NCBI RefSeq assembly: GCF_000975265.2
Contig: NZ_CP083405.1
Location: 1,302,001-1,366,000, forward strand
Direction of reading: 5' to 3'
DNA from: Mycobacterium lepromatosis
Lineage (GTDB): Bacteria; Actinomycetota; Actinomycetes; Mycobacteriales; Mycobacteriaceae
DNA length: 64,000 bases
The notes beneath the pieces are model-generated. The model saw only the letters and a list, made by a program, of their open reading frames with translations. It did no database searches and was not told the origin of the DNA. This document shows positions 33,722-35,714 of the stretch, in pieces. A program made the translations under genes and the position numbers. Numbering within the stretch: position 1 is the first letter of the stretch; each line of letters begins with the position of its first letter.

Positions 33722-33963
33722 TCGTTCCCCGAGCTCACTGTTAGCCCGATTCGGGAGCACAGTGAGCCGTGAAGGGCCTGATCCAAGCTCCACTGGGCTA
33801 CACCAGGGTGCCCGTACCGTGTTTTAGGGCTTTGAAATGCGGTTTCTGATGTTCCGATCGGGTTGGGAGGTGTCTTCGGGTGCCCCTGGTTCGGCCTCGA
33901 GGTGGTGAATAGCCGCAAAAATTCGATTGCTCTACCCTATTAAATGGGTCTTTATGGGGCAAA

Positions 33964-33987
33964 GTGGTGGATTGTGGGGTATGGTGA
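33964..33987 (+). promoter_or_regulatory. Candidate MraZ operator: GTGG-type direct repeats
   Basis: GTGG at 33964, GTGG at 33974 and GTGA at 33984 recur at exactly 10-bp steps, with GTGT at 33993, about 50-70 bp before the mraZ start. MraZ is known to bind short G-rich direct repeats with 10-bp periodicity upstream of its own operon. The match is by spacing and composition only. The rest of 33740-34036 shows no gene. Confidence 0.55.
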
Positions 33988-34036
33988 CTGAAGTGTTTGG
34001 GCGAGGCGGGACACGGTCTTGACGGGAGGTCAGCAG

Positions 34037-34468
34037 GTGTTTCTCGGCACTTACACGCCCAAACTCGACGACAAGGGGCGGCTGACGTTGCCCGCCAAAT
34101 TCCGCGATGCGCTGGCAGGGGGTTTGATGGTAACCAAGAGCCAAGACCACAGCTTGGCTGTCTATCCCCGGGCGGAATTCGAGCAGCTAGCGCGCCGAGC
34201 TAGCAAGGTGTCGCGAAGAAACCCCGAAGCCAGGGCGTTCTTGCGCAATCTCGCCGCTGGAACCGACGAACAACATCCCGACCTGCAAGGCCGTATCACG
34301 TTGTCGGCCGACCACCGTCGCTATGCCAACCTTTCCAAGGACTGCGTGGTGATTGGAGCCGTCGATTACCTTGAGATCTGGGACGCACAGGCTTGGCATG
34401 ACTACCGACAGACCCACGAAGAGAACTTCTCCGCGGCCAGCGATGAAGCACTTGACGACATCATCTAG
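34037..34468 (+). CDS. mraZ: Transcriptional regulator MraZ
   Basis: 143 residues from the GTG at 34037, preceded by GGGAGGT; the upstream in-frame ATG-like start at 34019 (TTG) is inside that ribosome site. Two AbrB-type SpoVT domains carry the conserved [14 protein letters not shown] and [15 protein letters not shown]. It is the first gene and autoregulator of the dcw cluster in many bacteria. Length and sequence match Rv2166c. Between it and rsmH lie 223 nt containing a very long hairpin. Confidence 0.95.
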
Positions 34469-34534
34469 TGGGTGGCGATTCGCTGCATCCGGCTCCGCCG
34501 CTCTTGCGATCGCCACGAGATCTAAGGCGGATGC

Positions 34535-34625
34535 CTCCGCATTGTGGTCTCTGTCCGAAGGCACGACCCTGGCGTACTTCCCCAACGCCAGGGTCGTGCC
34601 TTCGGACAGAGACCACAATGCGGAG
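34535..34625. repeat. Perfect 41-bp-arm inverted repeat between mraZ and rsmH
   Basis: 34535-34575 is exactly complementary to 34585-34625 with a 9-nt loop (ACTTCCCCA). It starts CTCCGCATTGTGGTCTCTGT and contains AGGCACGACCCTGGCG. It begins 66 nt after the mraZ stop and ends 66 nt before the proposed rsmH start. No U-tract follows, so it is not a classic terminator. Read in the rsmH frame it encodes [10 protein letters not shown] ... VVPSDRDHN, which resembles the annotated N-terminus of the M. tuberculosis protein (from memory), so the structure may be older than this lineage. Confidence 0.96.
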
Positions 34626-34691
34626 ATGTTTGCATTCCTCGGGGCGGTTCCGAGAGGCAACAGGTGCCGCCAAGCCAGGGGAGGTGGCGAG

Positions 34692-35714
34692 GTGGCTAAC
34701 GGCTCAAGTGTTTTCGGGCATGTGTCTGTCTTTGCGCAACGGTGTGTCACGCTGCTTACCCCTGCGTTGACCCGCCATCATGCTGATGGGTCCAATGCGG
34801 TCCTGGTGGACGCCACCCTCGGCGCTGGTGGGCATGCAGAGCGATTCCTGACCGAATTTCCGGGTTTGCGGCTGATTGGACTTGACCGCGACCCGAGCGC
34901 CCTGGATATCGCCCGGACTCGGCTAATGCGATTTGCCGACCGGGTCACGTTAATCCATACGCGTTATGACCTCCTCGCTGTGGCACTGAACAAATTTGGT
35001 TATGCCGCAGTGGAATCGGTCGATGGCGTGCTGTTCGATCTAGGTGTCTCGTCCATGCAGCTGGACCGTGTCGAGCGAGGTTTTTCCTACGCTCAAGACG
35101 TGCCGTTGGACATGCGGATGGACCCGGGGTTACCTGTTAGCGCGGCCGATATCGTCAACAACTATGACGAGGCCGCATTAGCCGATCTCCTTCGCCGGTA
35201 TGGTGAGGAGCGATTCGCACGCCGCATCGCTGCGTACATCGTCCGCCGGCGTGCCCACACTCCGTTCACTTCGACTGCCGAGCTGGTAGCTCTTTTGTAC
35301 CAGGCGGTTCCGGCGCCGGCCCGGCGCACCGGCGGCCATCCGGCCAAGCGCACGTTTCAGGCACTGCGGATCGCGGTCAACGACGAGTTGAACTCGCTGA
35401 GCAACGGCCTTCCCGCTGCGCTGGATGCGCTAACTGTGGCCGGGCGCCTCGTGGTGCTGGCCTATCAGTCGCTCGAGGACCGGATAGTCAAACGCGTGTT
35501 TGCCGACGCGGTCGCCTCTCGCACGCCGGCGGGCCTCCCGATCGAACTTCCGGGCCATGGACCGCGATTCCGGTTGTTGACGCGCGGCGCTGAACACGCA
35601 GATGCTGCTGAGATCGAACGCAATCCCCGCAGTGCCGCCGTGCGATTACGGGCCCTACAACGAACCGAGCATGGAGTGGAACCGCAGCAGCCAACTAGGA
35701 GGGGCGACTCATGA
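34692..35714 (+). CDS. rsmH: 16S rRNA (cytosine1402-N4)-methyltransferase RsmH
   Basis: 340 residues from the GTG at 34692, which has an excellent ribosome site (GGGGAGGT, 7 nt spacing) and directly precedes the family's conserved start ([18 protein letters not shown]). The frame is open far upstream, through the 41-bp hairpin and into mraZ; orthologs are often annotated longer. SAM-binding and core motifs are visible: [44 protein letters not shown] and [12 protein letters not shown]. It methylates C1402 of 16S rRNA. Its stop overlaps the next start by 4 nt. Confidence 0.9.

Follow-up and report, generated by a model that had tools for sequence, protein, structure and literature searches.

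A palindrome between mraZ and rsmH in Mycobacterium lepromatosis as a local copy of the mraW RNA hairpin within a conserved reading frame

Introduction

Between mraZ and rsmH, at the head of the dcw cluster of Mycobacterium lepromatosis, lie two arms of 41 nt that are 100% complementary and stand 9 nt apart. What is this structure, and how did its arms come to be perfect? A first, sequence-only reading had seen in it a selected structure heading the cluster, plausibly acting as RNA, and had named selection, templated repair and a mobile origin as possible sources of its perfection. Here, the locus is compared with its counterparts across the genus Mycobacterium and beyond. The window is the whole stretch of DNA analysed, 64,000 nt of the M. 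lepromatosis genome (assembly GCF_000975265.2, contig NZ_CP083405.1, positions 1,302,001 to 1,366,000 of the forward strand), and positions are counted from its first letter. The features discussed are as follows.

34037..34468, + strand: mraZ (TIGR00242, 108.1 bits against a cut-off of 98.35, on 34019-34465), with its stop TAG at 34466-34468
34443..34445, + strand: ATG in frame with rsmH and 23 nt upstream of the mraZ stop, the proposed start of a long RsmH
34443..35714, + strand: long RsmH frame, open, 423 aa, with the hairpin inside it (TIGR00006, 276 bits, residues 117-407)
34471..34519, + strand: MIRU-like dispersed repeat, after the mraZ stop and before the hairpin, with similar stretches elsewhere in the genome among the matches listed
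34529..34635, + strand: match to Rfam RF01746, mraW RNA (94.8 bits, E 3e-21, gathering score 50)
34535..34575, + strand: left arm of the hairpin, complementary to the right arm
34576..34584, + strand: apical loop ACTTCCCCA; the conserved loop sequence TACTTCCCC occupies 34575-34583
34585..34625, + strand: right arm of the hairpin, complementary to the left arm
34678..34684, + strand: GGGGAGG, a Shine-Dalgarno (SD)-like site of the short RsmH, read from the sequence
34692..35714, + strand: short RsmH frame, from a GTG behind the SD-like site (TIGR00006)

The start of mraZ is likely the GTG at 34037, which GGGAGG precedes. The rsmH product belongs to the 16S rRNA C1402 methyltransferase family TIGR00006.

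The palindrome and its surroundings

Recomputed pairing confirmed the perfect arms and the 9-nt loop, and the very stable stem foreseen for them was also found. As RNA, the segment 34469-34690 (222 nt) has a folding energy of -147.6 kcal/mol, compared with -90.65 +/- 5.16 kcal/mol in shuffled sequences (z -11.0), and none of 200 shuffles reached the native energy. The hairpin also lies midway between its neighbours, with 66 nt on either side (34469-34534 and 34626-34691). This arithmetic is correct, but the symmetry appears accidental, because across 161 mycobacterial loci the distance from the mraZ stop to the loop takes 14 values and that from the loop to the downstream start takes 29.

The palindrome is present in a single copy in the M. 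lepromatosis genome, where searching up to E 10 added one 20-nt match (E 0.9). A dispersed or mobile repeat was rejected for this reason; templated repair, another of the proposed sources of perfection, does find support. At the hairpin itself, no intrinsic terminator (a suitably sized stem with a T run behind it) and no sigma-70-type promoter was found.

The stretch before the hairpin is a dispersed repeat that we take to be MIRU-like. Similar stretches in other mycobacterial genomes occur in tandem with a spacing of about 55-57 nt, and MIRU-like sequence also precedes the hairpin in the two closest genomes outside the leprosy pair, once in G592 and twice in G619. The predicted fold pairs TCGCCAC of this repeat (34510-34516) with GTGGCGA at about 34683-34690, just behind the rsmH SD-like site, a pairing that could hide the short start in the leprosy lineage. 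Further upstream, before mraZ, TGGG and TGGGG words are repeated at 33940-33985; these presumably resemble MraZ binding boxes.

A copy of the mraW RNA

The covariance model of RF01746 matches the hairpin well above its gathering score and directly upstream of the rsmH/mraW methyltransferase core. Judged by this match, the leprosy-bacillus palindrome is a local copy of the conserved mraW RNA hairpin, with which it shares the model, the site before rsmH/mraW, the loop and the stem. The sequence-only reading did not mention that the element was already catalogued. Weinberg et al. (2010; PMC2864571) listed RF01746 for Actinomycetales as an RNA that probably regulates in cis, and its Rfam type is Cis-reg. 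The mraW RNA is reported as a core mycobacterial RNA, present in single copy with few exceptions (PMC9569102), and is among the annotated RNAs named in a small-RNA sequencing study (PMC8600241). The minus strand is matched too, at 70.9 bits, because the palindrome is symmetric. Other Rfam candidates at the hairpin (MIR918, mir-4520, F6 and others) all fell under their own gathering scores.

All 198 genomes of the genus carry RF01746 at or above the gathering score, so the hairpin is not missing from any related mycobacterium in this set. In a sample of 298 genomes of the order, of which 35 among the matches listed belong to the genus itself, 145 exceeded the cut-off and 269 reached E 0.1. One of 14 control genomes exceeded the cut-off, and any match at all was found in two (Thermus composti and Corynebacterium glutamicum).

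The mycobacterial copies differ from the catalogued cis-regulatory element in that the reading frame around them is conserved; those of the leprosy lineage have, in addition, lost the conserved mismatches. Neither the open frame through the hairpin nor the perfect arms of the leprosy lineage appear in the open-access descriptions that we found.

A conserved structure with conserved mismatches

Covariation was assessed in an alignment of 150 distinct mycobacterial hairpins out of 153, from which both leprosy loci and L063 were excluded. The stem comprises 36 pairs, in which 92.4% of cells are paired, and 14 of the 36 pairs have changed on both sides. The covariation score was 0.121, compared with 0.069 in shuffles; none of 500 shuffles reached the native value, and slid structures scored lower. 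These numbers are somewhat flattering, since the shuffles ignore relatedness and the structure was derived from the same sequences. Aligning the spacer across mycobacteria had been suggested from the outset, and its outcome, together with the genus-wide presence of RF01746, upholds the idea that the dcw cluster is headed by a selected structure that plausibly acts as RNA.

The loop is nearly invariant: TACTTCCCC was found in 180 of 181 genomes, with ACTTCC as the search anchor, which was not found in the remaining genome. Several oppositions within the stem are just as regular in being unpaired. A C-U opposition beside the apical stem is unpaired in 150 of 150 hairpins (C-U itself in 149), a mainly U-U opposition is paired in only 6 of 150, and a mainly C-A opposition in 28 of 150. 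Twenty non-mycobacterial loci, when folded, gave mismatched stems of the same kind. In a number of Rhodococcus-type and related loci (L088, L090, L091, L093, L095, L119 and L337), the element is doubled or branched, with two CTTCCCC loops separated by about 39-41 nt.

The rsmH frame through the hairpin

In 180 of 181 mycobacterial genomes, the rsmH frame stays open from the enzyme core back across the hairpin and beyond the end of mraZ, G045 being the only one in this set that breaks it; the spacer is therefore more than plain non-coding sequence. The 181 genomes are the 198 of the genus less 14 left out and three that were unusable (G147 and G162, contig ends; G149, N gaps). Counted by unique mycobacterial loci, the frame is open in 160 of 162. 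These include 19 named loci, and L073, titled a Bifidobacterium breve MAG, was counted as mycobacterial by its sequence; L236, which has no loop anchor, was dropped from later counts, leaving 161. Ten further genomes of the genus and 18 of the 19 named loci agree on the open frame, the exception being L063, which contains undetermined bases. Of another set of 12 loci, eight were inspected, and seven were open and one, G534, broken. Real-looking breaks thus number two, in G045 and G534.

This frame has persisted through extensive length change. On a FastTree tree, at least 31 and at least 76 length changes were inferred on the two sides of the loop, with zero and two phase changes, respectively; the two are L171 (the locus of G045) and L063. 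Between the mraZ stop and the short start, none of the 161 loci has a stop in the rsmH frame, and 97 and 37 loci have one in the other two frames. A start codon with an SD-like site between the hairpin and the core occurs in the rsmH frame in 120 of 161 loci, and in the other frames in 44 and two. Outside the genus, the frame is open in only six of 61 unique loci, which are spread over the phases as 22/20/19, and in four of 20 further loci.

Two loci have unusual spacers. In L222 (G155), a 24-nt unit is repeated several times between the hairpin and the rsmH start, with the frame intact. In L216 (G149), two mraZ-rsmH units stand in tandem with N gaps, and the hairpin peptide lies in a long open frame in both; this may be a true duplication or an assembly merge.

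A start codon inside mraZ

An in-frame ATG inside the end of mraZ is present in 181 of 181 genomes, at -23 in 176 and at -20 in five, and persists even where the MraZ amino acid has changed. Where the site encodes Asp, the codon is GAT in 155 of 155 cases in the genus, compared with 309 of 1484 Asp codons elsewhere in mraZ; outside the genus, GAT accounts for one of 29 Asp codons at the same site. Since an ATG at -23 requires a codon ending in AT, keeping it forces the use of a disfavoured Asp codon.

A search of 156 loci revealed no SD-like site at 4-17 nt upstream of this ATG, which means that initiation at it must depend on the translation of mraZ. Ribosomes that finish mraZ are the likely source.

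Synonymous entropy over the last 16 mraZ codons is 0.32 bits (11 scored), compared with 1.03 bits upstream (45 scored). From GAA GAG AAC TTC TCC onwards, within the last 48 nt of the gene (34418-34465), synonymous sites show unusual fixation. This fixation reaches further upstream than overlap with the proposed ATG explains, and the end of mraZ may hold a second signal.

Is the extension translated?

If ribosomes start at the internal ATG, they would produce an N-terminal extension of RsmH encoded by the hairpin. Differences between close pairs of sequences are nearly even over the three codon positions from the hairpin to the short start (76/85/94; 42 pairs) and up to the SD-like site (29/30/33; 13 pairs). 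Beyond the short start, position 3 has the most differences (41/36/72), as it does in the RsmH core (556/336/1826). Position 3 is not the most variable one in either arm (left, 92/68/42; right, 51/110/78). Selection on the extension peptide was therefore not seen by this measure, and it is the frame that has been kept in the spacer, not the peptide. To judge by codon positions, protein-type constraint begins at the short start.

The usual description of RF01746, though not the model itself, places the element in an untranslated leader. In Mycobacterium, the evidence on this point is divided, with conservation of the frame and ATG on one side and flat codon positions in the spacer on the other. 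Taken together, these patterns suggest that mycobacterial RsmH likely has a translated N-terminal extension that holds the RNA element. Ribosomes would pass through the hairpin, and the RNA rather than the peptide would carry the function.

Perfect arms in the leprosy lineage

Perfect pairing is an exception in the family, not the state that is kept. Uninterrupted Watson-Crick pairing from the loop extends over at most 8 bp in 159 of 161 loci, and reaches 41 and 40 bp only in the M. lepromatosis window and in G114, respectively. G114 is a second leprosy-type genome, 93% identical over the region among the matches listed; all 41 pairs are standard in both leprosy-type loci, with one U-G in G114. 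The closest other genomes among the matches listed are G592 (3.1 Mb, 85%) and G619 (4.2 Mb), whose kinship we infer to fit M. uberis and M. haemophilum, respectively. Both have mismatched hairpins.

Imperfect inverted repeats can be made perfect when one arm is copied from the other, a process termed quasi-palindrome correction by template switching and seen mainly in laboratory mutants. Comparison with the relatives gives some support to such templated repair. The leprosy left arm is somewhat nearer to the reverse complement of the relatives' right arm than to their left arm. Against G592, the values are 37/42 and 34/43 positions for G114, and 37/42 and 33/43 for the window (G000); against G619, they are 34/41 and 32/42 for G114, and 33/41 and 31/42 for the window. 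The left arm carries the right arm's extra bases. In the other direction, the right arm now bears the base that pairs with the left arm at the C-U opposition, as it also does at an outer position in G114, and a single base of the leprosy stem matches neither G592 arm. The perfect arms were thus likely derived by arm-to-arm copying, although the margin in these comparisons is small. The outcome is that of the laboratory cases, with the difference that the leprosy version is fixed in a lineage and lies inside a conserved RNA element.

The arms have also gone on changing together. The window and G114 differ at 23 of 260 positions, five of them within the 82 arm bases, and all five keep pairing: two pairs have changed on both sides and one C-G has become U-G. 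In a simple simulation, five random substitutions kept all pairs with a probability of 0.006. Repeated copying and selection would each account for this joint change equally well in these sequences. All 41 pairs are standard in both loci even though the leprosy species reportedly diverge by 9.1% and separated about 13.9 million years ago (PMC9248898).

RNA evidence from relatives and comparable systems

Published RNA data describe transcripts from this stretch in a relative. In M. tuberculosis, the small RNA candidate 1359 gave Northern bands of 60 and 30 nt and lies within the annotated Rv2165c, upstream of a GTG 53 codons into the gene and behind GGGGAGG. Miotto et al. (2012; PMC3526491) judged the long annotated start to be wrong, preferred this GTG, and reported a sigma-B-like promoter sequence before the candidate. 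Read in the direction that agrees with their text, their coordinates (GTG at 2429447, RNA at 2429342-2429373) would place the RNA at about bases 54-85 of the annotated gene. The promoter argues for a transcription start rather than processing. Candidate 1359 arises from the first 53 codons of Rv2165c, which is the hairpin's stretch in mycobacteria; it is treated as an intergenic small RNA, and the account given of it does not name RF01746. On these coordinates, the candidate may correspond to the 3' arm of the hairpin from the loop onwards.

In C. glutamicum, the 3' end of the motif is close to a 5' end that has been called a transcription start; in C. diphtheriae, the start site is described downstream of the motif. 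Some of the rsmH message in Corynebacterium may therefore lack the hairpin. More than 90% of mapped cleavages in M. smegmatis are reported to have C at +1 (PMC6448022), and the hairpin loop holds a C run. An account of M. tuberculosis operons has the dcw operon start at murE, and mraZ and rsmH are not named in that passage (PMC3605390).

Two known systems invite comparison. The rpfB-ksgA-ispE RNA switch of M. tuberculosis likewise couples a cell-wall gene with an rRNA methyltransferase gene, but is described as a transcriptional switch found in pathogenic mycobacteria only (PMC6009663), whereas the hairpin is genus-wide and no terminator-like site was found at it. UpsM of Rhodobacter sphaeroides is likewise an RNA element heading a dcw cluster; it precedes the cluster, belongs to another phylum and is comparable to the hairpin in position (PMC5089854).

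Alternative explanations

The main rival is a plain untranslated, cis-regulatory leader of rsmH, in which the open frame would be incidental. The Rfam type of the element agrees with this, as does the loss of the frame in most loci outside Mycobacterium, where the element works without translation. An SD-like site precedes an in-frame short start in 120 of 161 loci, Miotto et al. (2012; PMC3526491) prefer that start, and a codon-position signal is missing in the spacer and present after the short start; all of these point the same way. Such a leader does not explain why the frame has been kept in 180 of 181 genomes despite at least 107 inferred length changes, nor why the ATG within mraZ persists, in this genus only, in spite of codon bias. 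We regard a plain leader as unlikely, though well worth bearing in mind.

Alternatively, as the sequence-only reading had suggested along with a possible role as attenuator or mRNA stabiliser, RNase III might cut the stem and part the mraZ message from that of rsmH, in which case a two-form RsmH would be unneeded. M. lepromatosis has both a 41-bp perfect duplex and an uninterrupted RNase III gene, and cleavage itself is putative. In C. glutamicum, RNase III is reported to cleave mraZ mRNA, a cut needed for efficient division (Maeda 2016, cited in PMC8247434). That cut, however, is described within the mraZ coding region, and the usual stem of the family is mismatched every few pairs. Separation of the messages by RNase III seems improbable on this evidence.

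The loop itself offers another possibility, as CUUCCCC could pair with the rsmH SD-like site GGGGAGG and mask it. In the window, an uninterrupted run of seven pairs, including one G-U, could form, and a run with a score of 12 or more is allowed in 134 of 161 loci. The real loop nevertheless ranks only sixth among 21 orders of the same letters when set against the real SD regions, and its distance to the start varies widely; because the loop is invariant, it offers no covariation by which to judge the pairing. This pseudoknot is possible, yet performs no better than other letter orders, and was rejected as a candidate; we consider masking by the loop quite improbable.

The stretch might also be merely the RsmH N-terminus, with the hairpin a by-product of coding constraint. 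Conservation of the frame in 180 of 181 genomes and a recurring peptide of 14 letters in the extension would fit. This explanation is already contradicted by the same hairpin and loop occurring in other phases outside the genus (Nocardia, Rhodococcus and Gordonia). Double changes such as that from GCG..GCC to ACG..GTC alter two amino acids yet keep a pair (18 of 150 hairpins have an unpaired A-C there), and the third codon position is not the most variable one in the arms. A coding by-product is accordingly very unlikely.

An element acting as DNA, whether an operator, a recombination site or a mobile repeat, is scarcely credible, for although the sequence is a perfect DNA palindrome that RF01746 matches on the minus strand by symmetry, it is single copy, its G-U pairs and both-side changes point to RNA, and uninterrupted arms occur in only two of 161 loci.

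A proposed mechanism and its implications

The preferred reading is that the RF01746 hairpin lies in a likely translated extension of RsmH, that it would act in processing and in the control of translation between mraZ and rsmH, and that its arms were perfected later in the leprosy lineage. Drawn from comparative sequence data, this composite reading has, in our estimation, an even chance of being right. It builds on the family identity, the covariation, the near-invariant loop, the conserved frame and ATG, and the lineage-specific loss of mismatches. From these we infer a course of translation, processing, switching between two forms of RsmH, and copying.

Ribosomes fresh from mraZ would reinitiate at the overlapping ATG, traverse and open the hairpin, and make the long RsmH. 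When few ribosomes arrive, the hairpin would fold, and its C-rich loop or its stem would be cut or bound. The downstream piece would keep its own GGGGAGG-GTG start and yield the short RsmH. Later, in the common ancestor of both leprosy-type genomes, template switching would have perfected the arms, with much of the left arm rewritten from the right and a few right-arm bases from the left.

More tentatively, and with doubt outweighing confidence, mycobacteria may have made an ancient leader RNA of actinobacteria part of the RsmH coding sequence, so that one stretch would serve both as regulatory hairpin and as translated N-terminal tail. Ribosomes arriving from mraZ would then set the balance between the long and short forms, and in the leprosy lineage copying between the arms would have frozen the sensor in a mismatch-free state. 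If the proposed working is correct, the start of an rRNA methyltransferase gene would move across the whole genus, including its major pathogens, and a catalogued orphan RNA would gain a testable setting. Translation of MraZ, a division regulator, would be tied to ribosome maturation, and the leprosy hairpin would represent a natural case of a quasi-palindrome turned perfect.
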